From an uncultured Alphaproteobacteria bacterium (GTDB lineage: Bacteria > Pseudomonadota > Alphaproteobacteria > Sneathiellales > Sneathiellaceae): DNA of 43,351 nt. A program made the translations under genes and the position numbers. The notes beneath the pieces are model-generated. The model saw only the letters and a program-made list of their open reading frames with translations. It did no database searches and was not told the DNA's origin. Shown here piece by piece: positions 16,050-43,351 of the stretch. How positions within the stretch are numbered: position 1 is the stretch's first letter; every line of letters starts with the position of its first letter. The stretch covers positions 1-43,351 of the forward strand of contig CAJXWA010000010.1 in NCBI GenBank assembly GCA_913062525.1. Reading direction: 5' to 3'.

Positions 16050-16568
16050 ATGTTGGTTGAAACTGCTTTAAAGAGTATCACTCTCTTTCTTCCGCTGCTG
16101 GCGATCGCTTTGATGTTGTGCGCGGCTTTCACTGATTGGACGGTACGGCGAATTTCAAACAAAATATCGCTGTGTTTAGTGGTGCTATTTGGGGCATTTA
16201 CCCTAATACCGGGATGCGTCGATGATGTTATGCCGCATATGTTGGTTTCAGTGGGGATGCTACTGGTATTATTGCCGGTTTATGCCATGGGAAAAATGGG
16301 CGGCGGAGATGTGAAACTTTTGGTTGCCTCTGGACTTTGGATGGGAAGCGATCAAATCACGGAATTTATCCTATACGTGAGTTTCGCAGGTGCCGTTTTA
16401 GCGTTAATTTTGATCTCAGAAAACTTGCGAAATATATGGGAATGGGGCGCTTCGAAGGTGGGGCTTCAGTCCGTGGGTGGGGCCGCATCCAAAGCCATTG
16501 GAATTCCCTACGGAGTCGCAATTTCATTTGGTGGCATAGTTCTCATTTCCAAATCCTATGTGCTTTGA
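16050..16568 (+). CDS. cpaA: Tad prepilin peptidase CpaA/TadV
   Basis: A 172-residue inner-membrane aspartic protease of the A24 family that removes the leader of Flp and pseudopilins. The two catalytic aspartates are Asp29 (FTDWTVRRISNKIS) and Asp87 in the GxGD motif (MGGGDVKLL). Several hydrophobic spans are visible, and the N-methylation domain of larger PilD enzymes is absent, as is normal for TadV. A purine-rich GGAGGGAGAG precedes the ATG. Confidence 0.95.
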   Translation: MLVETALKSITLFLPLLAIALMLCAAFTDWTVRRISNKISLCLVVLFGAFTLIPGCVDDVMPHMLVSVGMLLVLLPVYAMGKMGGGDVKLLVASGLWMGSDQITEFILYVSFAGAVLALILISENLRNIWEWGASKVGLQSVGGAASKAIGIPYGVAISFGGIVLISKSYVL

Positions 16569-16577
16569 GGTAAATAA

Positions 16578-17420
16578 ATGCGCTCTCTCATAATGTTTTT
16601 CTGTTGCCTCTGTTTTTTTGGAGTGGCCGTCTATCTGGCAGTTCAGGTTTTCGTAAAACCTGAAGCTATTTCTGTTAAAGCACACGTTGAAGCGGCTCCT
16701 CGTGTCCATCTTCCTAGCCTTAGAAAGGCTACTTCAAAAGGTGAAATTGTGCAGATGAGCGATGTCGTTTGGATCCCATATTCAGGAAATGATGATTTGG
16801 CGGGTCTTGTAAATCAATCCACCCTTTTGAAGGCAAAAGCGGACTATTTTTCCGTAAACCGATCTGTTGAAGCTGGTGTAATTCTCAAGCGAGAGGATTT
16901 TCTTTGGCCCACAGATAAACGGTTTTTAGAAAATATACTAAAGCCGGAGTTTCGAGCAGTAGAGGTTAGTTTTTTAGAGGGTTTGCTTGAAAAGAAGATC
17001 CTTACAAGTGGTAGTTTCGTTGATTTGTTATGGTCTAATAAAAAAATGAATGACTCTTTTATTGTCGCCCAAAACATCCGAGTGTTGGCGGTCCAGCCAG
17101 ACGGAGGTGGAAATTCCATAGTGCTGTTGGAAGTCAGCACAGCCCAATCAGAGATCATATCGGTTTCCCGTTCGCTTGGATCTGTATCCCTTCTACTTCG
17201 TTCAAAAAATCGGATTAAAAAAGATAAAAATCTGAAAAATGTGCTCCAAAGACTTCGCCTTATGGGGGCCGGAACCGGGGTGTTGCCTCTCCAAGGCGAG
17301 GACAAAATTTTGATTATCCAACGGGGAGAAAAGATCACAGTAATGAATAGGACGAGTGGTCGTCTGCCACAAATCAAAACATCTCTGTTTACCGGGGTTA
17401 CTGAAAGAGGAGTGAATTAA
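16578..17420 (+). CDS. cpaB: Tad pilus assembly protein CpaB/RcpC
   Basis: A 280-residue periplasmic protein with one N-terminal membrane anchor (residues 3-24) and an SAF-like domain (about 45-115: SKGEIVQMSDVVWIPY, then RSVEAGVILKREDFLW). It belongs to the CpaB/RcpC group, which works with the secretin and may bind peptidoglycan or gate the channel. Its stop overlaps the cpaC start by one base (TAATG), showing translational coupling. Sequence is divergent, so identity rests partly on position. Confidence 0.88.
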   Translation: MRSLIMFFCCLCFFGVAVYLAVQVFVKPEAISVKAHVEAAPRVHLPSLRKATSKGEIVQMSDVVWIPYSGNDDLAGLVNQSTLLKAKADYFSVNRSVEAGVILKREDFLWPTDKRFLENILKPEFRAVEVSFLEGLLEKKILTSGSFVDLLWSNKKMNDSFIVAQNIRVLAVQPDGGGNSIVLLEVSTAQSEIISVSRSLGSVSLLLRSKNRIKKDKNLKNVLQRLRLMGAGTGVLPLQGEDKILIIQRGEKITVMNRTSGRLPQIKTSLFTGVTERGVN

Positions 17421-18784
17421 TGTACAGGGTTTTTTTGGTGAGTTTTTTCACATTTCTCTTCGGTTTTTCCCTGGTCGCAGCAGATGAGTTGTTCCTCAAA
17501 CCCAATGAAGGAAAATTATATCGCCTCGGGGCCGTTGTTCGGGATGTTCTGATTACTAACCCCGAAATTGCTGATGTGCAGATGACGCAAAGTAATGGTT
17601 TGTTTGTTTATGGAAAGCAATCTGGACGGACACATATTGTTGCCCTAGCTGATAATGATGTGGTGGTGTTCGAAAGATTTGTAACGGTAAATCGAGACCT
17701 CAAAAAATTGGAGACATTGTTCAAAACTGAATTTCCAGAGTCAAATGTAAGCGTTCAACTTTCTCCTGGCCGATTGATACTAAGTGGAAACGTAGATAGC
17801 GCGTTGACCGCCAAAAGTATATTAAGTCTCGCCAGTGGGTATTTGGTCGGTGGCGAGAAACTGGTGGATACCCTCAAAATTGCATCTCCGGTTCAAGTAA
17901 ATCTCCGTGTTCGGGTCATGGAGATGAATAGAGTCGCTACTAAGAATATTGGCATTAACTGGAACTTGCTCCTCAATCCGGGATCTATGGCCATTAATTT
18001 GATCTCTGGCAGAAGTCCCTTAGCACTGGCTGGAAGCGCAGTTCCCGGATCAACTGTTGCGGCAGGTGGTAGCAGTACACAATTTGGTAGTACCGGAACT
18101 GACGCGTCATTTTCAGCCATAGTTGACGCCTTAGTCGAAGATAAATTGATAACAGTGCTCGCAGAGCCAAATCTAACATCGCGGTCCGGGGAAACAGCCA
18201 ATTTTTTTGCGGGAGGGGAGTTCCCCATTCCCATCGCCTCTGATGACAACGGGGTTACAATTGAGTTCAAAAAATATGGTGTTTTGCTCGACATGACACC
18301 AACGGTTATTTCTCCAAATAGAATACGGCTCCATATTCGGCCTGAAGTCAGTGAGCTGTCCTCTGCTGGGGCCGTGGTTTTGAACGGTATTACAATTCCT
18401 GGCATTGCCATTCGCCGGACAGAGGCGACGATTGAACTCGCAAGCGGGCAAAGTTTTTCTGTGGCAGGCCTTCTTCAAAATCAGAAACGAGACTTGGTGA
18501 GAGAAGTGCCGTGGCTCGGGCAGATGGAGGTGCTGGGGCCACTTTTCCGCTCGAAAGAATATCAAAGCTCTGAAACAGAGTTGGTGATTATTGCGACTGT
18601 CAATATTGTGAAACCTCTCTCACATGCAGACTACGTATCCCCTTTGGCTGTAGACCACCGCAATGAACAAAACATGCGAGGCCCCGAAGCGCTTCCCCAA
18701 AATCGAGATACGGCACCTGAAACCCGGGAAATCCGTACCAAAGATGGCATTAAACTGTATGGCCCGAGGGGGTATATCTTTTGA
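17420..18784 (+). CDS. cpaC: Tad outer-membrane secretin CpaC/RcpA
   Basis: A 454-residue secretin that forms the outer-membrane channel for the pilus. A signal peptide occupies residues 1-21 (ending LVAADE). The N-terminal pilus-associated domain follows (RLGAVVRDVLITNPEIADVQ), then a BON-like segment (LSPGRLILSGNVDSALTAKS) and the secretin core with EPNLTSRSGETANFFAGGEF and GQSFSVAGLLQN. The length is normal for CpaC. It is linked to cpaB by a one-base overlap and to cpaD by a four-base overlap. Confidence 0.95.
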   Translation: MYRVFLVSFFTFLFGFSLVAADELFLKPNEGKLYRLGAVVRDVLITNPEIADVQMTQSNGLFVYGKQSGRTHIVALADNDVVVFERFVTVNRDLKKLETLFKTEFPESNVSVQLSPGRLILSGNVDSALTAKSILSLASGYLVGGEKLVDTLKIASPVQVNLRVRVMEMNRVATKNIGINWNLLLNPGSMAINLISGRSPLALAGSAVPGSTVAAGGSSTQFGSTGTDASFSAIVDALVEDKLITVLAEPNLTSRSGETANFFAGGEFPIPIASDDNGVTIEFKKYGVLLDMTPTVISPNRIRLHIRPEVSELSSAGAVVLNGITIPGIAIRRTEATIELASGQSFSVAGLLQNQKRDLVREVPWLGQMEVLGPLFRSKEYQSSETELVIIATVNIVKPLSHADYVSPLAVDHRNEQNMRGPEALPQNRDTAPETREIRTKDGIKLYGPRGYIF

Positions 18785-19404
18785 TTGTCCTCATGAAAGT
18801 GATCAAGGAGCAATTTCCTAATCGAAAAATAGGTCTCGTTCTTCTGTTGTTGTTTAGTGGATGCCTTGCCGACGATCGTAGTTTTCGAAATCTAGTGCCG
18901 GCAAGTGAACCTGTTCAGGTTCAGTTTTCCCGCTCGAATTTTGTGTTTTATCAAGGCGAGCCGGGTGCAATGTTTATAGATAAAAACGGCGCAGAAATCT
19001 CAACAGCGATGGCCGCACAGAATACTGAACGAGTAGACGAACTCCAGCTGACTGTTTCATCGAGAAAATTGTTCGAGGTTGCTCAAAAACTGAAAGAGAG
19101 TTGGCTTGCTGGGGGCGGCAAAAAAGTATCAGTTCGAGTGGCGAAGAACACAGACTATTTGTCTATCCAGTACATAGAAATGAAAACGGTCGAAATCGGT
19201 TTGAAATTGCCGCGTTGTCATGATGCTAGGGGGAAATACAAGCTGGGATGTGCCGTGAATTCAAATCGGGCATTGAGTTTGGTAACCTATAGCGAGTTAC
19301 AAAAGGGATCTGAGCTTGGTCGTGGGCGATCAGCGTTGGAAAGCGAGAGTATCAACGCGCTGACGCAGAGTAAAAGCGTTAAGTTTCAGGGTGCCGTGAA
19401 ATGA
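18781..19404 (+). CDS. cpaD: Tad pilus assembly lipoprotein CpaD
   Basis: A roughly 200-residue outer-membrane lipoprotein thought to help the secretin assemble. A lipobox LFSGC follows a short hydrophobic stretch, so Cys28 (counting from the TTG) would be lipidated. The C-terminal LGCAVNSNRALSLV fits the conserved GCA..N motif of the CpaD family. The TTG at 18781, overlapping the cpaC stop, has GAGGGGG 8 nt upstream; the in-frame ATG at 18793 is the alternative and would shorten the leader by four residues. The overall sequence is poorly conserved, as usual for CpaD. Confidence 0.85.
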   Translation: MIVLMKVIKEQFPNRKIGLVLLLLFSGCLADDRSFRNLVPASEPVQVQFSRSNFVFYQGEPGAMFIDKNGAEISTAMAAQNTERVDELQLTVSSRKLFEVAQKLKESWLAGGGKKVSVRVAKNTDYLSIQYIEMKTVEIGLKLPRCHDARGKYKLGCAVNSNRALSLVTYSELQKGSELGRGRSALESESINALTQSKSVKFQGAVK

Positions 19405-20648
19405 CTGTTGATCAGACACTCGAGATACCAACCCCCGTAGATAGCGGTATTTCTATGAAAACTGCTGCCGCGTTTGTTTTGGATGCGCAAAGCCTCCAAC
19501 AGATGCGTCTTTGTTTGCCGCGGTTGGGTTTTGAGGTAGAGGGCATCGAACGAGGTGACGTTCGAGATGCCATTAGGACTTATTCAGAGACGCAATCACC
19601 AGAACTTCTAATAGTGGATATATCTGACTTCGATATGCCTCTCTCTGAGCTTGAAATACTGGCAAACGTCTGCGCCCCCGATGTGAGGGTTGTTGTGATT
19701 GGAGATCAAGATAACGTAGGCCTATACCGAAATTTAATGCGCTATGGCGTGTCAGAATATCTGGTAAAACCGCTGCCCTCCGATGTTCTATTTCAATCGC
19801 TCAAGCAAGTGTGCGGAGGAGAAAATATCAATTCCAAAGCTAATAAAACAGGAAAAACAATTGGCGTTATGGGCGCCAAGGGCGGTGTTGGCGGCAGCAC
19901 AATACTTGCCGGATTATCTGACGCCCTGTCGCGGCAATATCATCGCCGGGTAATGATGCTCGATATGAATTTTCATGATGGGGACTTGGCCGTAATTTTT
20001 GGCAAGAGAAGTCAGCAGGGTTTGTTGGAATTGCTGAAATCACCTCATCGAATTGACGAATTGTTTATTGAACGTGTCGCCGTATCTTTGGGCCCAAGGT
20101 TTGATCTGTTATTTGGGGATCAAGCGATCGAGCAGAGAGTCGAGATATCTACGGAAGCGTTGGAAAATCTATTTGAAAGACTTCGGAAAAATTATCATTT
20201 CATTATCTCAGATATCATGAAGACGCCAATTCCGTCAGCCTTGCAGTTGTTAGAAGATTCAGACGTTAGAGTGGTGGTCATGGATAGAGGGCTTGGATCT
20301 ATTCGAACAGTAACGAGAATGCTGAAAAGGCTTCAGGTCGAGCAAAGGCAAAAACAAAATATTGTTATACTGAATAACCCTCGGCCCAGTTTGAAAGGAG
20401 ATGTCTCTTTCCACGATATAGAGGACGTTATTCAATATCCTATTGATTTCGAAATACCATATGACGGACGGAGCTGCGCCGACGCAGCACTTGCGGCAAA
20501 ACCAGTTAGCCAACTTAAAGGCAAAATTGGATCTCAAATAACAGAAATTGCAAATTCACTGGTAGGTCCCGTTTTAGCCGGCCCACAGCAGAATCTTATA
20601 AAAAAAATAGTTTGGGAGGGGCAAAATGTTTGGAAAAAAATTAGATGA
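19401..20648 (+). CDS. cpaE: Tad pilus assembly ATPase CpaE/TadZ
   Basis: A 415-residue polar-localisation protein with an N-terminal receiver-like domain and a C-terminal MinD/ParA-like ATPase. In the receiver part Asp73 (LLIVDISD) and Lys123 (YLVKPLPSD) are kept but the full acidic pocket is not obvious. The deviant Walker A GAKGGVGGST is at 158-167 and LDMNFHDGDL follows. In Caulobacter CpaE localises the pilus secretin. It overlaps cpaD by 4 nt and cpaF by 23 nt. Confidence 0.93.
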   Translation: MTVDQTLEIPTPVDSGISMKTAAAFVLDAQSLQQMRLCLPRLGFEVEGIERGDVRDAIRTYSETQSPELLIVDISDFDMPLSELEILANVCAPDVRVVVIGDQDNVGLYRNLMRYGVSEYLVKPLPSDVLFQSLKQVCGGENINSKANKTGKTIGVMGAKGGVGGSTILAGLSDALSRQYHRRVMMLDMNFHDGDLAVIFGKRSQQGLLELLKSPHRIDELFIERVAVSLGPRFDLLFGDQAIEQRVEISTEALENLFERLRKNYHFIISDIMKTPIPSALQLLEDSDVRVVVMDRGLGSIRTVTRMLKRLQVEQRQKQNIVILNNPRPSLKGDVSFHDIEDVIQYPIDFEIPYDGRSCADAALAAKPVSQLKGKIGSQITEIANSLVGPVLAGPQQNLIKKIVWEGQNVWKKIR

Positions 20649-21996
20649 TAGGCCAACAATGGTGTCTGAGGAGGGCGAAGAATGGAAGAGCCAAGAGCCA
20701 ACACAGCCTCCAAATCAAACCGGCTCAAGAAGTGCCGCCGTATCTGAGGAATTGGTCGAGCGGATCAGGCGTCATTTTTTCGATCTGGTAAATCCTTCAA
20801 TTGCAGCAAGCCTGCCAAAGGACGATCTGATTGGCAAAATTAACAAAGCCGTAATGGAAATTGTCGATCGAGAGAAAATTCCTTTGAATTGGCAGGAGCA
20901 AAGTCAAATTTCTGTGGATATTCTCAATGACATGATGGGCGTTGGCCCCATTGAAATATTGCTAAAAGACGACAGAATTACTGATATTTTGGTGAACGGT
21001 CACGACAATATTTTTGTTGAAAGGGCGGGCCAGCTGGAGCTAACCGATTTAAAGTTTAGAGACGATCAGCATTTATTGGGAGTTGCTCGTAGGATTGCAG
21101 TTTCAGTTGGTCGCCGTATCGATGAAAGCAGCCCCATGGTTGACGCGAGGTTGCCTGACGGGAGCCGGGTCAACATTATTATTCCACCGCTTTCGGTGAA
21201 CGGAACGATCATCTCGATCCGAAAATTTCCCCTCAATTCAACTTCCTTAGACGATCTTGTCAAAAAAGAAGCTTTTACCCAGCAAATGGCTGATTTTTTG
21301 AAAGTCGCGGCTGCCTCTCGATTAAATCTACTTATTTCAGGAGGGACAGGATCTGGAAAAACCACCCTGTTGAATGCGTTATCTGCACATATTGGAGAAA
21401 AGGAACGTGTCGTAACAATTGAAGATGCGGCGGAGATTAACTTGCAACTGCAAAATGTGATTAGTCTTGAAACGCGTCAAAAAAATGTTGAAGGAAGCGG
21501 AGAAATTTCCCAGCGTGATTTACTACGAAATGCATTAAGAATGCGCCCCGATAGAATTATTATTGGTGAAGTGCGGGGGCCAGAGGCCCATGAAATGTTG
21601 CAAGCAATGAATACGGGACATGATGGTTCCATGTCGACCATTCATGCGAATTCCGCTCGGGATGCTTTAAACAGGTTGGAGGATTTGATGTTGTCCAATC
21701 AGCTGAATTCCAATCCGGAAATTATCCGGAAGCAAATATCGTCTGCAATAGACTTGGTGATACATGTTGTTCGTGATTTTAGAGGGCATCGTTATGTGAG
21801 GTCTATTTCTGAAGTTATGGGGATAGAGGGAGAGGTCATTGTTAGTCAGGAGATTTTCAAATTTGTTGATGAAAATAATAGTTATCCCACAGTTTTTTCA
21901 GGAAGTTTTACGCAAAATTCAGTGCGATTGAATTGTATGGATAAAGTCAAGAGATATGGCCGTGAGGTCAATTTGAAACGAGTCATGAAATGGTGA
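20626..21996 (+). CDS. cpaF: Tad pilus secretion ATPase CpaF/TadA
   Basis: A 456-residue hexameric traffic ATPase that drives both extension and retraction of Tad pili. Walker A GGTGSGKTT is at 239-247, Walker B is RPDRIIIGEVRGPEA, and the His box is TGHDGSMSTIHANS. An N-terminal alpha/beta domain (about 45-135) includes DDRITDILVNGHDNIFVERA. The ATG is inside the end of cpaE after GGGAGGGG, and its TGA overlaps the tadB start. Confidence 0.97.
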   Translation: MFGKKLDDRPTMVSEEGEEWKSQEPTQPPNQTGSRSAAVSEELVERIRRHFFDLVNPSIAASLPKDDLIGKINKAVMEIVDREKIPLNWQEQSQISVDILNDMMGVGPIEILLKDDRITDILVNGHDNIFVERAGQLELTDLKFRDDQHLLGVARRIAVSVGRRIDESSPMVDARLPDGSRVNIIIPPLSVNGTIISIRKFPLNSTSLDDLVKKEAFTQQMADFLKVAAASRLNLLISGGTGSGKTTLLNALSAHIGEKERVVTIEDAAEINLQLQNVISLETRQKNVEGSGEISQRDLLRNALRMRPDRIIIGEVRGPEAHEMLQAMNTGHDGSMSTIHANSARDALNRLEDLMLSNQLNSNPEIIRKQISSAIDLVIHVVRDFRGHRYVRSISEVMGIEGEVIVSQEIFKFVDENNSYPTVFSGSFTQNSVRLNCMDKVKRYGREVNLKRVMKW

Positions 21997-22922
21997 CTAT
22001 TTTTGGCACATCTCATGTCACCTCATTACTGACGCTGTTTGCGATTACAGCGTTCTTTAGTGGCGGCTGCTTTTTGGGTATCACCCTATGGAGAGGGTAT
22101 CAATTAAGCAAAAAAATAACCTTACGACTAAATGAATTAACTCCTGAAAGTTCACTTATTGAAAAACGCGGACGCGACCTAATTGATGCACCGGTAAAAA
22201 CCATATCGGTTTTGCGACAGTCTATGACTTACAAAATTTTAGGCGGCGCAATTGTTGTTTTGAGTATCATCTGGATCGTTGCAACGAAGGGATCGCTGTT
22301 ATCGTTAGCTGTCTTCGGGATTGAAGTCAGTGTTATCGCTTTCATTTATTTCGCAACCCGGTACCTACGTTCACTAAAGCTGGAAAAGTTGTCTAACCAA
22401 TTTCCTGAAACCCTTGACATGATCGCGCGAAATGCCCGGGTGGGGGTTACTCTGGAAGAGAGTTTCCAGCATATTCAAAGTGAATTACCAAAACCTATTT
22501 CCTCACTTTTTAGCGAAATATCAAGCAATTTGAGCATAGGTATTCCGTTGGTAGAAAGCCTTGAGAAAATTGTGGTGAAATTGGATTTAAAAGAAATCCG
22601 ATATCTTTCTGCGATTTTGTCAGTACAGCGGAGAAGCGGCGGGAAATATGCAGAAATTATCGGAAAACTTAGTCAAAACATTAGAGATCAACATGAACAA
22701 AAGAAACGAATAAACGCAGTTACTGCGGAAGCCAGAACGGCGGCAAAGGTGGTGGCGATCATCGCGGGTGTTGCTGCTTTTTCAATGATTTTTATCAACC
22801 CGGGACAGTTTGAATTTTTGTTGATTGACCAGAGTGGTCAGTTGCTGCTGATGTATTGTATCGGAAGTATTCTTGCCGGTTTTTTAATAATATTCCGCAT
22901 GCTGAGTTCGTTGAATGACTAG
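21990..22922 (+). CDS. tadB: Tad inner-membrane platform protein TadB
   Basis: A 310-residue polytopic membrane protein with a T2SSF/GspF domain (about residues 145-275: FPETLDMIARNARVGVTLEE, then RRSGGKYAEIIGKLSQNIRD). Hydrophobic spans are near the N-terminus (about 10-32), at about 75-120 and at the C-terminal end. With TadC it forms the inner-membrane platform on which CpaF acts. It overlaps cpaF by 7 nt and tadC by 8 nt. Confidence 0.94.
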   Translation: MVTIFGTSHVTSLLTLFAITAFFSGGCFLGITLWRGYQLSKKITLRLNELTPESSLIEKRGRDLIDAPVKTISVLRQSMTYKILGGAIVVLSIIWIVATKGSLLSLAVFGIEVSVIAFIYFATRYLRSLKLEKLSNQFPETLDMIARNARVGVTLEESFQHIQSELPKPISSLFSEISSNLSIGIPLVESLEKIVVKLDLKEIRYLSAILSVQRRSGGKYAEIIGKLSQNIRDQHEQKKRINAVTAEARTAAKVVAIIAGVAAFSMIFINPGQFEFLLIDQSGQLLLMYCIGSILAGFLIIFRMLSSLND

Positions 22923-23835
22923 TTTCTTTATTCTGATGGGCAGCGGAACCTTATTTGTAATGTCAGTTCTATTGTTTTTTAGCGCAATTCAGCGGCGAAG
23001 ACGGGAGCAATGGGGAGATAGACTAATTACTGTTCTTGAACACAGGTCTATGTCAAATCGTTTGTTTCTACCGACAACCAAAAACGCAGATCTTCTCAAT
23101 GCCTTACCCGAAAATGAAAGCAAACATGATGCTTTGCAGCGGCGAGATAAGGATATTATTTTTTCTTATTTTGGAATGAGTTCTGGGAAAGCTTCGATCT
23201 ATTTTTTAGGTGCTAGGGCAATCATTTCAGCAATATTTTGCTTCTGTTACAAGATAAGTGATGGAATGGGTTTTGTCCCGACGACTAATGATTTTTCTTG
23301 GTATGGATATCTAATTTTGGTGGGCGTGGTTGGGTTTATGGTACCGGAATATATTGTATCAAAACTGTCCAAGCGTCGGAAAGAAAAGATTGAGAAATTG
23401 GCACCTGATGCCATAGATCTTTTAACGCTAACGGTTGAATCTGGAATTTCATTCGATGAGGCATTACAGGTCGTCTCGCAAAGTATGCAGGGATATGGCT
23501 CAGTGCTGGCTGACGAATTGGAGATTTTGGCGGCTGAACTTGTTGTGTTGCCGCACCGGGAGGCGGCGTTTGCCAATTTGGTAGATAGGACGGGATCGGC
23601 GACATTTGGATATTTGAAGTTGGCCATATTGCAGGGTGAAAAATTTGGCGCCCCTGTTGCCGGATCACTTCGTATTGTGGCTGAGGAAAGCCGCCAACAA
23701 AACTTTCTAGATAAAGAAGAAAAAGGAGCCAAATTACCCGTTTATTTGAGCATTCCGTTGATGTTGTTCATATTGCCGCCTGTTGTCGTGGTGTCTGTTG
23801 GACCAGGCTTTATTCAGCTAATGAGATCGTTTTGA
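22915..23835 (+). CDS. tadC: Tad inner-membrane platform protein TadC
   Basis: A 306-residue partner of TadB with a T2SSF domain (about residues 155-290: APDAIDLLTLTVESGISFDE and LKLAILQGEKFGAPVAGSLR). Membrane spans are near the N-terminus, at about 97-150 and at the C-terminus (LSIPLMLFILPPVVVVSVGP). The overlap with tadB argues for equal synthesis of the two platform subunits. Confidence 0.94.
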   Translation: MTSFFILMGSGTLFVMSVLLFFSAIQRRRREQWGDRLITVLEHRSMSNRLFLPTTKNADLLNALPENESKHDALQRRDKDIIFSYFGMSSGKASIYFLGARAIISAIFCFCYKISDGMGFVPTTNDFSWYGYLILVGVVGFMVPEYIVSKLSKRRKEKIEKLAPDAIDLLTLTVESGISFDEALQVVSQSMQGYGSVLADELEILAAELVVLPHREAAFANLVDRTGSATFGYLKLAILQGEKFGAPVAGSLRIVAEESRQQNFLDKEEKGAKLPVYLSIPLMLFILPPVVVVSVGPGFIQLMRSF

Positions 23836-23846
23836 AAGGCGCTGCA

Positions 23847-24644
23847 ATGATCAAAAGAATTATCTTATCCCTAGCCACTGCATTAAGCCTTTCAGGGTGT
23901 ATTTCTTTAAGTGATCTCTCATCAAATATTGAAACAGGTCTAATTGATCCTAAAGGAATGAAGGTTGCCGCTGCACTTTTAAAAAACGGTGATGCGGGAA
24001 CAGCCGCTGGAATTTATGAAAAACTCCTCAATGATCAGCCGACTAATGAGGATCTGTTATATGGCCATGCAACGGCGATTTATGAACAGGGTAAATATCG
24101 GGATGCACTGATTGCATACGAAAAACTAAATGCTGAAACAGGTGGTAATTGCGATGCATTTGTTGGGATGGGGAATAGTCATCTAAAACTGGGAAGGCCA
24201 ACGGTTGCAGGCAGTTTTTTTGCGCAGTGCTTAATGGATGAAAATGATCATGAAGTGGCATTGTTAGGTCGGGCAATCTCTTTTGACGCGATTGGTAAAT
24301 CTAATGAGGCCCTCGCTTTCTACCAAAAAGCAATATCACAAAACCCTCAAGACTTAGGCCTCCGTAATAATTATGGATTATCGCTATTGATGGCTGGACA
24401 AGCACAGGCTGCAATAAATGAATTTGGGAAAATTGCCTTTTCTGAATTTTCAACAGTCCAGATGCGTCAAAATTTGGCGCTGGCATATGCCATGGCCGGT
24501 GATACGGGTGCCGCTGAGAAAGTTGCCGGGCTGGATCTTTCTTCTCAAAGGGTGGCGAATAATATGAAGATTTATGAGTATGTGCGAAATTTACCGGGTA
24601 ATGAGGCTTTAAAATCACTCATATTTCAGGGAATAGTCCAATGA
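23847..24644 (+). CDS. tadD: Tad TPR lipoprotein TadD
   Basis: A 265-residue tetratricopeptide-repeat lipoprotein. The signal ends in LSLSGC, so Cys18 is the lipidated residue. TPR-like helices run through most of the chain, for example DLLYGHATAIYEQGKYRDAL, ALLGRAISFDAIGKSNEALA and QDLGLRNNYGLSLLMAGQAQ. It acts as an outer-membrane assembly factor for the Tad secretin. The ATG at 23847 follows AAAGG by 7 nt; a TTG at 23832 in the same frame would spoil the signal peptide start and is less likely. Confidence 0.9.
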   Translation: MIKRIILSLATALSLSGCISLSDLSSNIETGLIDPKGMKVAAALLKNGDAGTAAGIYEKLLNDQPTNEDLLYGHATAIYEQGKYRDALIAYEKLNAETGGNCDAFVGMGNSHLKLGRPTVAGSFFAQCLMDENDHEVALLGRAISFDAIGKSNEALAFYQKAISQNPQDLGLRNNYGLSLLMAGQAQAAINEFGKIAFSEFSTVQMRQNLALAYAMAGDTGAAEKVAGLDLSSQRVANNMKIYEYVRNLPGNEALKSLIFQGIVQ

Positions 24645-25129
24645 AACGGCTCCGTATTTTCTCGGCCTCAATCCTTCTGTGGCGGCGAGATCGCGGAAGT
24701 GTTGCCGTGGAATTTGGGCTTATAGCTCCAGTTATTTTGGTGTTGGCTTTCACGAGTGTCGAGGTTGGGAAAATGCTGGTAGTTGATAGCATAATGCAGT
24801 CGGCGGCAAATGCTCTCGTGATACAACTTCGCCATAAAAGCGCGGAAGAACGCGCCGAAATCTCAGCCACTACGGTTGCAGCCCTTTTAACGGAAATTCT
24901 CGCATCCAGAGGCAACGGTTGGGTGGATACTGAAAATGTTACCGTTCAACTTTTAAATTTAGACCAAAGGCAGCCAGATACGCCGAGCGGTGGAGGCGGG
25001 GATCAAATGAGGTATTTTTTCTTATATGAATATCAATCAACCACACCGATATCAATTTTGTTTCTAAATGCATCCTCTCTCTCTCGTTCAATTGAAATAA
25101 CGTCGCGAAATGGAGCAGAAGAGATTTGA
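24641..25129 (+). CDS. tadE: Pseudopilin TadE
   Basis: A 162-residue TadE-like pseudopilin. The N-terminus RDRGSVAVEFGLIAPVILVL has the Gly-x4-Glu cut site (after Gly19) and one transmembrane helix, so CpaA should process it. The rest would face the periplasm and form a minor part of the pilus or its base. It overlaps tadD by 4 nt and ends in TGATG, which starts the next pseudopilin. Confidence 0.9.
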   Translation: MKRLRIFSASILLWRRDRGSVAVEFGLIAPVILVLAFTSVEVGKMLVVDSIMQSAANALVIQLRHKSAEERAEISATTVAALLTEILASRGNGWVDTENVTVQLLNLDQRQPDTPSGGGGDQMRYFFLYEYQSTTPISILFLNASSLSRSIEITSRNGAEEI

Positions 25130-25689
25130 TGATCCTAAAACCATTCTCTTCTTTTTATATGTGTACGCAGGGGAGCTTAATGATTGAAGTCGCAGTTGCT
25201 CTACCGGTTCTTGTTCTGCTGCTGTTTGGAGGCTTTGATCTTGTCCGATATGTGCAGGCAGTTGGCAAAGTTGATATGGCTGTCAGTTCCATCGCGGCCG
25301 AATTGCGAGACACTGATGAAATTGTCGTTACAATCGTACCTGAAATTATCGCAGCGGCTGAGAGTACATTATCATTCGGTGAGCTTGCGCCAACAGTCTC
25401 GATCGTGATTGAGGCGATTACTCTCGATCCTCACGGTAACAGTATTACGGCTACGTTGATTAATAATCCATCCACTCTGAACGCCTGCACCGACCCGCTA
25501 GGTTTAGCTGCGTTGCCAGTGGCAAGGGAGCAAGAATTCGCACCTAATCAGTATTTAGTCGTTGTCAAATTGTGCGCTGATTACGGGACGAATTTCTTTC
25601 TTTCATCTCTGATTCCAACATCCGCGCGGCAGATGTCGGCGTCGGCAATTGGCCACGCCAACTCTATTTTCAAAGTCACGATAGAATGA
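25129..25689 (+). CDS. tadF: Second TadE/TadF-family pseudopilin
   Basis: A 186-residue pseudopilin with the N-terminal pattern GSLMIEVAVALPVLVLLLFG: Gly then Glu five residues on, then a hydrophobic helix, as in TadE and TadF. The ATG at 25129 overlaps the tadE stop (TGATG); a TTG at 25126 is also possible. Three Cys residues in the periplasmic part could form disulfides. Named tadF by position and family; TadE and TadF are hard to tell apart by sequence. Confidence 0.8.
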   Translation: MILKPFSSFYMCTQGSLMIEVAVALPVLVLLLFGGFDLVRYVQAVGKVDMAVSSIAAELRDTDEIVVTIVPEIIAAAESTLSFGELAPTVSIVIEAITLDPHGNSITATLINNPSTLNACTDPLGLAALPVAREQEFAPNQYLVVVKLCADYGTNFFLSSLIPTSARQMSASAIGHANSIFKVTIE

Positions 25690-27020
25690 AAATCGTGAAA
25701 TCAAACTTGATTTCACGGCTGTCACAGGACGAGGGCGGTTCTGTTTTAGTTTGGCTGGCTTTTACCTTTTTTCTTCTGTTTGGATCTTTAGCGTTAGCCG
25801 TTGATTTAGCACGGGTTTTTGTCTTTCAAAATCGACTGGATCTGGCGGCCGAGGCATCTTCATTAATAGCAGCTCAAAATTTATATCTGTTACCCGAAGA
25901 CGATTTATTTGCGTTGGCATACGAAGTTGCTCGGAACAAAGTGGAAGATAATCCTTTCCCGTCCTTTACGACAGGAGAGGTGTTACTAGACGATTTCTCA
26001 ATTTCGAAAATTGACGATGATGTGAGTATCGAAGTATCGCTTAAGGGAAAATTGCCGACAACTTTACTTCGATCTTTAAATTTTTTTGAGGACATTGACG
26101 TCCAGGCAACCGCAATTGCCGAAATGACGTTTTCCAAAACTGAGCTGGTTATGGTTCTGGATAGTTCTTTAGTCGCGGAGGCAAGCGGAAAACTTAGTGA
26201 AATCAAAACTGTAGCTAACTATGTCGTTGGACAAGTTGAACGGTTGGTCAATGCGGGAAAAAACATTAAACTCGCAATTGTTCCTAACGCAAACGTATTT
26301 ATGAATGTTGCTCCTAATAAGGGATGGGTTCAATCATCAGATTGGCCGGATGATTTAATCCCGCCAAACGTTCCCGGTGTTACACAGTGGAGCGGTTCTC
26401 TTGAAAATCAACGATGGTGTATTGGGCGCCGCCTAGGAACTGCAGCCGTTTTACCTGTCTCCCCCCTTACGGAGCCATTCCCTTTGATACTGGCAATTAA
26501 TAAAGAAGTCGGAGCAGACGGAATCAATATCTTTTCAATCACGACAGATGATAATTGTGGAAGTTCGCCCATAAGGCCATTGTCAGCCTCGGTGTCTGCT
26601 TTTGGTGGATATTTGGCTGATGTTGACGCTGCAGGCGTTTTTGCAAGGGGGCGTAGTTCTGTCTGGGCTGAGCGGTTGCTGTCACCGAATTGGCAAGGGA
26701 TATGGAATGCAGATGCTGATACGCCGGTAGATTATGGAACGGGTATGCGAAAAGTGGTTTTGTTTCTAACGGGAAGCGGCGACACCGGAAATTCCCAAGA
26801 TGAACAGGATTTTTCTGAAAGCTGTGAACGATTGAAACAATTTGGAGTTAAATTGATCATTCTAAATTATGGAGGTGGGAGCTCTACCAATGCGGGATAT
26901 GAGAGCTGTATTAATGCTGGCGGTTTTTATGGGACATTTGATGAAAGTGCTTCGTTTAAAAGCACTGTGGCAGATTTTGTGAAATCATTGACGTCCTCGC
27001 GGCTAATCGCTTTAAACTGA
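25686..27020 (+). CDS. tadG: TadG-like protein with degenerate VWA domain
   Basis: A 444-residue Tad protein with an N-terminal membrane helix in the TadG pattern (DEGGSVLVWLAFTFFLLFGS, residues 15-34) and AVDLARVFVFQNRLDLAAEA after it. The region from about residue 152 resembles a von Willebrand A domain (ELVMVLDSS), but the metal-binding DxSxS is broken: Asp159-Ser160-Ser161-Leu162-Val163. VVLFLTGSGDTGNSQDEQDF is a likely later strand-loop of the same domain. It is the last gene of the tad operon, overlaps its predecessor by 4 nt and converges on a DUF1853 gene with 3 nt between stops. Confidence 0.85.
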   Translation: MKIVKSNLISRLSQDEGGSVLVWLAFTFFLLFGSLALAVDLARVFVFQNRLDLAAEASSLIAAQNLYLLPEDDLFALAYEVARNKVEDNPFPSFTTGEVLLDDFSISKIDDDVSIEVSLKGKLPTTLLRSLNFFEDIDVQATAIAEMTFSKTELVMVLDSSLVAEASGKLSEIKTVANYVVGQVERLVNAGKNIKLAIVPNANVFMNVAPNKGWVQSSDWPDDLIPPNVPGVTQWSGSLENQRWCIGRRLGTAAVLPVSPLTEPFPLILAINKEVGADGINIFSITTDDNCGSSPIRPLSASVSAFGGYLADVDAAGVFARGRSSVWAERLLSPNWQGIWNADADTPVDYGTGMRKVVLFLTGSGDTGNSQDEQDFSESCERLKQFGVKLIILNYGGGSSTNAGYESCINAGGFYGTFDESASFKSTVADFVKSLTSSRLIALN

Positions 27021-39401: not shown

Positions 39402-39434
39402 AAAAGCCCCGCATTCTTGCGGGGCTTTTTTTTT
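39402..39434. terminator. Rho-independent terminator between convergent genes
   Basis: GCCCCGC (39406-39412) and GCGGGGC (39419-39425) form a stem with a 6-nt loop, flanked by four A on the left and nine T on the right. It terminates the ligase/FadJ operon. On the minus strand it lies just after, and touches, the MFS stop codon, so it could serve both directions. Confidence 0.9.
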
Positions 39435-40896
39435 ATGCTTCTTTTTTATGAGCCCAAGCAATGTAAAGGGCCGGGATTAGAGATAGAGAAAAAACGAATG
39501 CTGAGATTAAGAACACATCTTCAAAGGTGTTGGTCAGCATTTGAATGTTGTCTGCAGCATCTAAAATGCCGTCCTTTGCAGTACTGGTGGCAATGGTTGT
39601 GTGGTGTTCTGTTCGTGCGGTAATTAATAGCGCCGTGAGGTTTACGCCAATAGTACCGCCAAGCATACGCACGAAATTCAGCGCGCCTGAGGCTTCAGGA
39701 ACCATGAGTGGGGGCACGATTGACAGGGCAAATGTACTGTTCGATGGCATGATAAATCCAAGACCGATACGGCCCACAATGATCCAACCCGCTAAGAATA
39801 GGTAGCTGGTATCTTTGGTCGAAAAACTAATCACTATCGAAGCGATTATGAAGACAGTTTGTCCAAATAAAATCAGCCTGTAGGCCGGCATTTTATCAAT
39901 AAGGCGTCCAACGATGGGAAAGACAAAAGCGAGGAGTAAGCCCGCAGGAAGTAACAGCAAGCCTGCGTCCGTTGCACTGGAAGACTGCACGGTTCTAGCA
40001 AAAAGTGGGATGGTGTAAAAACTGGAAAACATACCCGCGGTTGTAAGTGCGCCAATTACAGCTGAGGATGTAACGCGCAGGTTTTTGAACATTCTAAGGT
40101 CAACTAATGGCGCGGCGCTTTTAATATCCCGCAGGAAAAAAAGCAGTAATGATATGCCTGAAATTAGAAGGTAGGGATAAACGTGAAAGCTGGCAAACGG
40201 ATAAAATTGGCTGTTAGATAATCCCGTTAAGAGGCACCCGACCGACAGGGCAATAAACACTAAACTGCCGAAATTGAATTGTCCGGGTTTTTGATCGGTG
40301 TCTTTATCGGGTAATAAATATGCCCCGCAGCAGCCAGCTATAAAGGCTAACGGGATAACCACGGCAAACGTCGTATGCCAATCCATGCTGTCTGTGATTA
40401 TGCCGCCAATGACAGGCCCCATAGCCGGACCAATGACAACACCCATGCCAAACAGACCCATGGCGCGCCCTCTCATATTGGCCGGGAACAATAGAAAAAC
40501 CAGTGCCATGGACAAAGGCTGCAAAAAGCCGGCACCAGTGCCTTGCAGTAATCGTGCGACTACAAGAACTTCATAACTCTCAGAAAACCAGCCGAGCAGA
40601 CTGCCGACTATAAAAGATGTAATGGCAATTAAAAATGTGAACCGTGGTCCGATACGTTTCATTAGCCACGCGGTTGTCAGCATAGCAACGCTAGACGCAC
40701 ATAAAAACGCAGTGGACATCCATTGAGCAGAACCTTGGGTGATTTGAAATGTCGCCATGATATCGGTCAAGGCGACATTCACCATGGTCGAGGAGAATAT
40801 GGTCGTTAGTAAACCCAGAACGACAGTAAATCCAGCGACCCATTTATAGGAGGAGCCAAACTTTTCGCGAAGCGCTGTGTTTCGATCCATTCTCAT
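39433..40896 (-). CDS. MFS drug/metabolite exporter, DHA2 (EmrB/QacA) family
   Basis: A 487-residue polytopic transporter with about 14 hydrophobic helices. It has the EmrB-type first helix (GLLTTIFSSTMVNVALTDIM), the loop 2-3 motif AWLMKRIGPRFTFLIA and the motif C region MGVVIGPAMGPVIGGIITD. The family exports drugs or organic acids using the proton gradient. The ATG overlaps the CoA-transferase stop in ATGA, so the two proteins are made together; it may export a by-product or the free acid of the CoA ester. No EmrA-like membrane-fusion partner is present. The cargo is unknown. Confidence 0.9.
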   Translation of the reverse strand: MRMDRNTALREKFGSSYKWVAGFTVVLGLLTTIFSSTMVNVALTDIMATFQITQGSAQWMSTAFLCASSVAMLTTAWLMKRIGPRFTFLIAITSFIVGSLLGWFSESYEVLVVARLLQGTGAGFLQPLSMALVFLLFPANMRGRAMGLFGMGVVIGPAMGPVIGGIITDSMDWHTTFAVVIPLAFIAGCCGAYLLPDKDTDQKPGQFNFGSLVFIALSVGCLLTGLSNSQFYPFASFHVYPYLLISGISLLLFFLRDIKSAAPLVDLRMFKNLRVTSSAVIGALTTAGMFSSFYTIPLFARTVQSSSATDAGLLLLPAGLLLAFVFPIVGRLIDKMPAYRLILFGQTVFIIASIVISFSTKDTSYLFLAGWIIVGRIGLGFIMPSNSTFALSIVPPLMVPEASGALNFVRMLGGTIGVNLTALLITARTEHHTTIATSTAKDGILDAADNIQMLTNTFEDVFLISAFVFSLSLIPALYIAWAHKKEA

Positions 40897-42023
40897 GATT
40901 TGCGATCAAACTCTTTGCGGAGCTCGTCATTATGTTGTCCCAATGCAGGGATAGGGCCAAACTGATCTTTAGTTCCCGCAAAGGAGATAGGGGATGCCAC
41001 AAGGTTCACAGGTCCGTTTGGACTTTGCACCGTTGTTCGTTCCAGCTGGGGATGAGCAGATAAGTCCGCAACTGAATTGAGCGCGCCAAAAGCGATGCGG
41101 GCTGCAAGTAGTTTTTCAGCGGCATAGTCTCTGCTCAGTTTTTTGAAAATTTCGTTTATTTCTTCGTGTAATGCAATCCGATTGGCAACACGGTCAATAT
41201 TCGTCAGATATCTTGGATCCTCTACCAGATGCGGCGCGTTTAGGGCCTTTTCACACAGATTTCGCCATTCAGTTTGGTTTTGGATGGAAATTACGATTTT
41301 TTCGCCGTCTCTTGTGTCAAATGCTTCATAGGGTGCGATTGAGGGGTGGCTAAGGCCACCCCGTCCCGGAGCTTTGCCGCCATATTCTTCGTGGAGGAGA
41401 GGGACTGTCATCCAATCGGCCATGCCTGCGAACAGAGTAGATTTAATGGCTTTACCAATGCCAGTTCTCTGGCGTTCATATAGAGCTTCAAGAACTGCAA
41501 CCAAACCATGCATGCCAGCGGCAATATCACAAACTGACACACCTACTCGGCCCGGTTCTTCCGGAGACCCTGTTACCATGGCGAGGCCTGTTTCTGACTG
41601 TACGAGCATGTCGTAGGCTTTCATTTTTGCAAAAGGACCTTCCTCACCATAACCTGATATATCGACGGTTATTAACCGAGGCCGCTCTTGTCTAAGAGCT
41701 TCGCTATCTAAGCCAAACCGATTTACAACGCCGGGGGCCAAATTCTGAATGAAGATGTCTGCTTTTGAAATTATGGTTTTTAAAAGAGTGAGATCTTCGT
41801 TATTTTTGATATCAAGTTGGATTGATTGCTTGCCCCTATTAAGCCAAACAAAATAGGCGCTTTCTCCATTTACGACAGAGTCATATTGGCGGGCAAAATC
41901 ACCTTCTGGGCGCTCAACCTTAATCACACGCGCACCAGCATCGGCAAGTCTGGAGGAAAGGTAGGGAGCCGCTACAGCTTGCTCAAGCGAGACGACGAGG
42001 ATATCATCCAATGGTCGGGTCAT
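40893..42023 (-). CDS. CaiB/BaiF class III CoA-transferase
   Basis: A 376-residue family III CoA-transferase, moving CoA from one acyl-CoA to another carboxylic acid. It starts with DILVVSLEQAVAAPYLSSRL and has VIKVERPEGDFARQYD, LNRGKQSIQLDIKN and DISGYGEEGPFAKMKAYDML, where Asp138 is the expected catalytic aspartate. SHPSIAPYEAFDTRDG and LGQHNDELRKEF near the end are also typical. The first gene of a two-gene minus-strand operon with the MFS exporter, divergent from luxP. Donor and acceptor acids are not predictable. Confidence 0.92.
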   Translation of the reverse strand: MTRPLDDILVVSLEQAVAAPYLSSRLADAGARVIKVERPEGDFARQYDSVVNGESAYFVWLNRGKQSIQLDIKNNEDLTLLKTIISKADIFIQNLAPGVVNRFGLDSEALRQERPRLITVDISGYGEEGPFAKMKAYDMLVQSETGLAMVTGSPEEPGRVGVSVCDIAAGMHGLVAVLEALYERQRTGIGKAIKSTLFAGMADWMTVPLLHEEYGGKAPGRGGLSHPSIAPYEAFDTRDGEKIVISIQNQTEWRNLCEKALNAPHLVEDPRYLTNIDRVANRIALHEEINEIFKKLSRDYAAEKLLAARIAFGALNSVADLSAHPQLERTTVQSPNGPVNLVASPISFAGTKDQFGPIPALGQHNDELRKEFDRKS

Positions 42024-42204: not shown

Positions 42205-43326
42205 ATGACTAAAAAATCAGTGATTTTACTGTCTGGTTGTGTGACTTTTCTTATGTTGTGTTTAGTGAACTTACCTGCGGCAATCGCTGCTGATCGATTT
42301 GAAAAATATTGGACAGTAAACGAATATTTAACCTACAACCCTCAACAGGTCTCAAAAAGTAATTCGTTTATAAGTCGCGTTAGAGCCGCCGCGATACCCG
42401 CTACAAATATCAAAAAACCAATTCGGATAGCGGTTGTTTATCCAGGATTACAAGCATCCGATTATTGGAGACGTAGTATTGTGTCTTTAGAAAAAAGACT
42501 TAAGGAATTGAAGGCTCCTTATGAATTAGTTTCTCATTTCACAAAACCTGGTCTTACTGTTCATGAGCAGAGTAACAAAATTGGTCAATTCTTAGCTGCA
42601 GGTGCTGACTATTTGATTTTTACGCTTAATGTTAGTCAACACAAACCGTTAATCGAAAAAATTATGAAAGGCGACCAGACGAAAATTATCCTTCAAAATA
42701 TAACGACTCCCTTGAAAAGTTTTAAATTAAGGCAACCTTTTCAATATGTTGGGTTTGATCATGCCATCGGCACAGAATATTTGGTGGAAAAATATTTAAA
42801 GATTTTCGGGGGTAAAGCTGACTATGCGATAATGTACGGATCCCCCGGTTACGTCAGTGAAATGCGGGGCGGGACTTTTTTGCGTCATATGGAAAAACAC
42901 GCAGGAATGAAGCTTAAAGAGTCCTATTATGTGGGGTTCAACCGGAAAAAATCCTATAGGGCAGCGAAGGATTTATTAAAAAATCACTCAAATATTAAAT
43001 TCGTGTTTAGTGCCTCGACGGATATAGCGCTTGGTGTTTTGGATGCTTTACGTGAAGAGGGACGGATGGGCGACATTATTACCAATGGTTGGGGCGGCGG
43101 TAGCGCCGAACTTGATGCAATTCAAACCGGTGACCTAGATTTTACAGTGATGAGAATGAATGACGATAACGGAGTTGCAATGGCTGAAGCTATGGTATTG
43201 GATCAGCTAGGAAACGTAAGCGCAGTTCCCACTATTTTTTCGGGTGATATGGTGCTGGTTGAAAAAAGTATGACTGACAGCGAAATAATGGAACTAAAAA
43301 ACCGTGCCTTCAGATATTCAAAATAA
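42205..43326 (+). CDS. luxP: LuxP-type autoinducer-2 binding protein
   Basis: A 373-residue periplasmic binding protein with a signal peptide (residues 1 to about 28, ending PAAIA). It closely matches Vibrio harveyi LuxP as I remember it: VVYPGLQASDYWRRS, ILQNITTP, YVGFDHAIGT, NGWGGGSAELDAIQ and VMRMNDDNGVAMAEA. Residues that hold AI-2 and its borate are present: Gln83, Ser85, Trp88, Asn165, Arg221, Thr272, Asp273, Trp296 and Arg317. They are offset by a constant 6-7 from V. harveyi Gln77, Ser79, Trp82, Asn159, Arg215, Thr266, Asp267, Trp289 and Arg310. LuxP senses AI-2 with the sensor kinase LuxQ. The ATG at 42205 follows GGAG; a TTG 36 nt upstream is unlikely. Only 25 nt remain after the stop, so any luxQ is outside. 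Confidence 0.93.
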   Translation: MTKKSVILLSGCVTFLMLCLVNLPAAIAADRFEKYWTVNEYLTYNPQQVSKSNSFISRVRAAAIPATNIKKPIRIAVVYPGLQASDYWRRSIVSLEKRLKELKAPYELVSHFTKPGLTVHEQSNKIGQFLAAGADYLIFTLNVSQHKPLIEKIMKGDQTKIILQNITTPLKSFKLRQPFQYVGFDHAIGTEYLVEKYLKIFGGKADYAIMYGSPGYVSEMRGGTFLRHMEKHAGMKLKESYYVGFNRKKSYRAAKDLLKNHSNIKFVFSASTDIALGVLDALREEGRMGDIITNGWGGGSAELDAIQTGDLDFTVMRMNDDNGVAMAEAMVLDQLGNVSAVPTIFSGDMVLVEKSMTDSEIMELKNRAFRYSK

Positions 43327-43351
43327 TGAACCATCAGTTTTAAATAAAACA

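Follow-up and report, generated by a model that had tools for sequence, protein, structure and literature searches.

A LuxP orthologue and a LuxQ-type sensor with a resident-type kinase core form a predicted autoinducer-2 receptor in Sneathiella

We find that a gene at positions 42205 to 43326 of the window (the whole stretch of DNA analyzed, 43,351 nucleotides) encodes an orthologue of LuxP, the periplasmic protein that binds autoinducer-2 (AI-2) as a borate complex in vibrios. The host is an alphaproteobacterium whose GTDB genus includes Sneathiella glossodoripedis and S. chinensis. Together with an adjacent gene for a LuxQ-type sensor, this luxP probably makes up a two-gene AI-2 receptor used for listening only. 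The cytoplasmic PAS-kinase-receiver core of the sensor is of the genome's own CckA-like kinase type and not of the Vibrio LuxQ type. An earlier note on this DNA had recognized a LuxP in an alphaproteobacterial genome, and both points held; it overlooked that luxP has a luxQ partner, that the kinase core of this partner is swapped, and that no luxS is detected.

The luxP frame runs on the forward strand from an ATG at 42205 to a stop codon at 43326 (373 amino acids including a signal sequence, judged by eye to be of the Sec type), with GGAGAA directly 5' of the start. It is the last complete gene of its contig (C10), which ends at 43351. To its left, on the minus strand, lie a CaiB/BaiF-type CoA-transferase homologue (40893 to 42023), which forms the left border of the luxPQ slot, and an MFS-type transporter (39433 to 40896) that belongs to the conserved context but is outside the sensor; both were named by inspection. 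Farther away in the window, positions 16050 to 27020 hold a gene cluster of the Flp/Tad pilus type, with a prepilin peptidase, RcpC, a secretin, a CpaE-like ATPase, T2SSE, two T2SSF, and a TPR protein.

In a phmmer search of PDB chains, V. harveyi LuxP was the top match (E of ~2e-96 over residues 34 to 372; 46% identity), whereas the second-best match, a sugar-binding protein, reached only 5e-14. All nine AI-2/borate contact positions are kept in the alignment to V. harveyi LuxP: Q77, S79, W82, N159, and R215 correspond to Q83, S85, W88, N165, and R221 here, and T266, D267, W289, and R310 to T272, D273, W296, and R317. The offset is +6 through residue 273 and +7 beyond, exactly as the earlier note had proposed. 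Among these residues, we take D267 and W289 to be AI-2/borate contacts of V. harveyi LuxP. A published list drawn from structure 1JX6 names seven of the nine (PMC9687752), and Arg215 and Arg310 are the residues that meet S-THMF-borate (PMC3794749); their counterparts are the two arginines singled out in the note, 221 and 317. Across a 47-sequence LuxP alignment, 8 of the 9 contacts sit in only 37 invariant columns (hypergeometric P of ~8e-8), and their conservation is therefore not due to chance. The AlphaFold (AF2) model of the protein (pLDDT of 93.4) was closest to AI-2-bound 1jx6 (TM of 0.93, 2.0 Å); the VIA Z score was 46.6 against 1jx6 and 30.0 for the best non-LuxP chain. Sequence, fold, and contact residues together thus predict binding of borated AI-2 by the Sneathiella protein.

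Could the pair have retained its pocket residues but shifted to another ligand, such as an unborated furanose or a different borate-sugar diester? LuxP itself crystallizes with other borate esters (4yr7, 4yp9), an AI-2 synthase was not detected in the genome, and a distant relative (L106) differs at three contacts. Nevertheless, all nine contacts are kept here, only 8 of 120 compared proteins deviate from V. harveyi LuxP at any contact (one of them through an unreadable residue), and three LuxPs chosen at random by others all bound AI-2 (PMC12268683). We therefore regard a changed ligand as improbable, although it is the best surviving of the alternatives. L106 itself comes from another alphaproteobacterium; it is 29% identical, has three of the nine contacts changed, and perhaps binds another ligand.

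The gene might also encode a sugar-binding protein of the ribose or allose type, serving an ABC importer and merely resembling LuxP, since it shares the Peripla_BP_4 fold family with such proteins and gives weak E values to RbsB-like proteins. This reading is very unlikely given the wide gap between the two phmmer scores. In addition, the sugar-binding relative 5dte differs at five of the six alignable contacts, keeping only the first arginine; ABC genes are absent beside luxP, where a LuxQ-type sensor gene is found instead; and the protein falls inside the LuxP tree, the placement that the earlier note had asked to see checked. With the LuxP match so far separated, the contacts kept, and the neighbor and tree placement as described, we rejected a generic sugar-binding protein, in agreement with the note.

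The partner gene, luxQ, starts with a GTG at 43304 (43304 to 43351, forward strand; VPSDIQNNEPSVLNKT), overlaps the end of luxP, and exits contig C10 after 16 codons. Its remainder lies on the minus strand of contig C223 (L083) of the same genome: the two contig ends share 20 identical bases, and the reading frame is continuous across them. Unbroken loci in relatives show the same arrangement, with luxP overlapping luxQ (by ~22 bp in most Sneathiella relatives), followed by a xanthine-dehydrogenase-like gene. The join, which is based on the 20 bp, the frame, and synteny, is therefore well supported but not proved. Joined luxQ encodes 869 amino acids arranged as a transmembrane segment, the LuxQ periplasmic domain, a second transmembrane segment, PAS, HisKA (H512), HATPase, and receiver (D801). 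Pfam detects the periplasmic domain (PF09308; 26.9 bits against a cutoff of 25.7) and the HisKA, HATPase, and Response_reg domains of a hybrid kinase, with a subthreshold PAS match. In the AF2 model of the sensor part (pLDDT of 88.9), long helices flank the periplasmic domain, and the best five entries were Vibrio LuxQ periplasmic structures (VIA Z of 18.4 to 18.9; 12.9 for the next fold). Because identity to Vibrio LuxQ across this fold is only ~14 to 18%, contact between LuxP and LuxQ is assumed.

Two relatives raise the question of whether luxPQ is a decaying, nonfunctional remnant: one (G067) has a broken luxP, and in the nearest (L003, 9100 to 11700), luxQ stops before the receiver, which continues in other frames. 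In the source genome, however, both frames are open end to end, and the signal sequence, the nine contacts, and the phospho-acceptors H512 and D801 are intact, making decay highly improbable; a pseudogene was rejected on these grounds. The frame break in L003 may be a real loss or a sequencing error.

The kinase core of this LuxQ has a different affiliation from its sensor. Nine other kinases of the same genome matched it with 260 to 391 bits (32 to 43% identity), compared to 73 to 87 bits (24 to 27%) for Vibrio LuxQ cores. In a kinase-core tree, ten Sneathiella LuxQs formed one clade (100/99) nested with resident kinases (100/99), and ten Vibrio LuxQs fell apart from them. The best PDB matches for the LuxQ of a Sneathiella relative were the histidine kinase 5idj, which we take to be also a CckA, and CckA. 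Since the core groups with resident kinases and apart from Vibrio LuxQ, the protein combines a LuxQ sensor head with a local motor.

The distribution of luxP points to an old presence of luxPQ with vertical descent and losses. In the LuxP tree, the alphaproteobacterial proteins fall into a single supported group, apart from Vibrio. This group has 34 rows, among them one Magnetococcia row and one Oceanospirillaceae row (five of the 34 rows carry no class label, namely the Sneathiella LuxP studied here and those from four genomes of the same class), and the Sneathiella LuxPs are a clade inside it. The outgroup, L106, is on a very long branch, and we therefore do not rely on the root. luxP occurs in 10 of 26 genomes of the order and in 9 of 385 genomes of the class sample. 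Wherever both flanks were readable in Sneathiella, luxPQ lay between the same two genes. The CaiB-type neighbor was present in the luxPQ-bearing loci examined and also in luxP-less ones, without luxPQ between; in luxP-less relatives, the slot is either empty or filled by an unrelated gene of ~222 amino acids. Where the trees are resolved, luxP, luxQ, and CaiB branch alike, but gain and loss within the genus were judged by slot content because most of the CaiB gene tree lacks resolution. The slots that lack luxPQ, together with the one decayed luxP (G067; L203, 1001 to 1815), which has stops and lost contacts next to a luxQ 5' part that is still open, argue for loss, and the single conserved slot argues that luxPQ is old and vertically inherited in Sneathiella and sometimes lost. 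Old inheritance, one of two routes suggested in the earlier note, thus fits these data; luxPQ may first have entered the Alphaproteobacteria by an ancient transfer. The ~222-amino-acid gene (product beginning MISFxEIRAKAEENAGG) is found between CaiB and XdhL in L193 to L198, L200, and L204.

The patchy occurrence of luxP might suggest that a vibrio recently donated luxPQ or that the assembly is contaminated. This is the least probable alternative and was rejected: an AU test excludes a clade of Sneathiella and Vibrio LuxPs (P = 6e-5), the slot and its neighbors recur genus-wide, the three genes branch similarly, estimated contamination is 0.03%, and the luxPQ-less slots and decayed luxP suggest loss.

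We did not find LuxS in the source genome, in which luxS, LuxU, or LuxO could be missed because the assembly is only 84.8% complete. LuxS was also absent from 26 of 26 genomes of the order, 19 of which are at least 90% complete, and from all 25 alphaproteobacterial luxP genomes searched, whereas it was present in 17 of the 24 other luxP genomes searched (taxa assigned from record titles). SahH, the alternative to the LuxS route, is present in the source genome. Since no luxS was detected, the system most likely senses AI-2 from other species, as a listener and not as a quorum circuit. AI-2 has been proposed as an interspecies signal, and the sea is rich in boron. S-THMF-borate from other marine bacteria would enter the periplasm and close LuxP, changing the LuxP-LuxQ complex. 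This change may shift the kinase/phosphatase balance of the CckA-like histidine kinase, which carries a receiver domain itself. Phosphate would then pass to a phosphotransfer protein and a response regulator that are resident in the genome, and not to a LuxU-LuxO pair. The genome encodes five Hpt domains, one of them in a 129-amino-acid frame.

Partners encoded beside luxP in other genomes share the sensor but vary in output. All 30 scanned partners matched the LuxQ periplasmic domain (one below the curated cutoff), and their outputs comprised kinase, kinase-receiver, kinase-receiver-Hpt, GGDEF-EAL, GGDEF, and SpoIIE. These were typed by BLAST with Pfam-defined domains, which left 27 of 101 tree rows with no assigned output; the LuxP tree requires at least four output changes. 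By taxon, Sneathiella has resident-type kinases, Stappiaceae and Oceanospirillales have GGDEF-EAL, Campylobacterota have GGDEF, and one desulfobacterium has SpoIIE. We consider it likely, if with somewhat less confidence than for the Sneathiella receptor itself, that LuxP and the LuxQ periplasmic domain constitute a reusable AI-2 ear, present in several phyla and joined to swapped outputs (kinase, GGDEF-EAL, GGDEF, or SpoIIE), and that many of its owners, including every alphaproteobacterium tested, lack luxS and eavesdrop.

Individual loci illustrate the variety. A GGDEF-EAL partner follows luxP in Labrenzia, Stappia, Zobellella, and Marinobacterium (L009, L025, L033, and L047), and such sensors are predicted to place c-di-GMP under AI-2 control. 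In a Desulfococcaceae genome (L023, 9233 to 11467), a SpoIIE phosphatase is the output of the LuxQ-type sensor.

Sensing of borated AI-2 was long thought special to Vibrio, and owners of the receptor that lack the synthase would be clean cases of one-way listening at sea. Judging from the exchange of the cytoplasmic part, a single sensor head can probably be reused with kinases or c-di-GMP enzymes. Cultured carriers (S. glossodoripedis, S. chinensis, Labrenzia, Stappia, and Kiloniella) make direct testing possible. The near confinement of LuxP to Vibrionales, as the earlier note put it, reflects the older literature: LuxP and LuxPQ were considered Vibrio specific in 2004 (PMC524169), and LuxP was still stated to be present only in Vibrio in 2020 (PMC7584622). 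The confinement itself does not stand. Rezzonico and Duffy described LuxP homologues in Oceanospirillales and deltaproteobacteria in 2008, with complete LuxPQ restricted to Vibrionales (PMC2561040), and 267 LuxPs have since been listed in Proteobacteria and Deferribacterota (PMC12268683, 2025). LuxP outside Vibrio is therefore already catalogued, and the swapped output is the newer element; a literature search that lacked most subscription papers returned no paper on LuxP in Sneathiella or on GGDEF-EAL proteins with a LuxQ-type sensor.

Compared to LuxP-LuxQ of V. harveyi and V. cholerae, the Sneathiella system is alike in having luxP directly upstream of luxQ, the LuxQ periplasmic fold, the kinase-receiver layout, and a LuxP that is close in sequence with every ligand contact. 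It differs in having a kinase core from another histidine kinase subfamily (H-box GGIAHDFNN, against SHEIRTP in Vibrio LuxQ), and, unlike the Vibrio AI-2 system, it has no detected luxS and an overlap between luxP and luxQ. The LuxPs of Neptuniibacter, Marinomonas, and deltaproteobacteria resemble it in lying outside Vibrionales, beside PAS-containing regulators, and in genomes where luxS was at that time unfound; alphaproteobacterial luxPQ pairs are not reported in the available text of that study (PMC2561040). Similarly, the 2025 set (PMC12268683) agrees in the broad occurrence of LuxP but, in the portion available, treats LuxP as a binding protein for import and makes no mention of partner genes, of swapped outputs, or of Sneathiella. 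Finally, Sinorhizobium meliloti is likewise an alphaproteobacterium that lacks luxS and is able to sense AI-2; its LsrB, however, binds unborated AI-2 and imports it (PMC3386761), whereas the Sneathiella system is of the LuxP type and is predicted to signal across the membrane.
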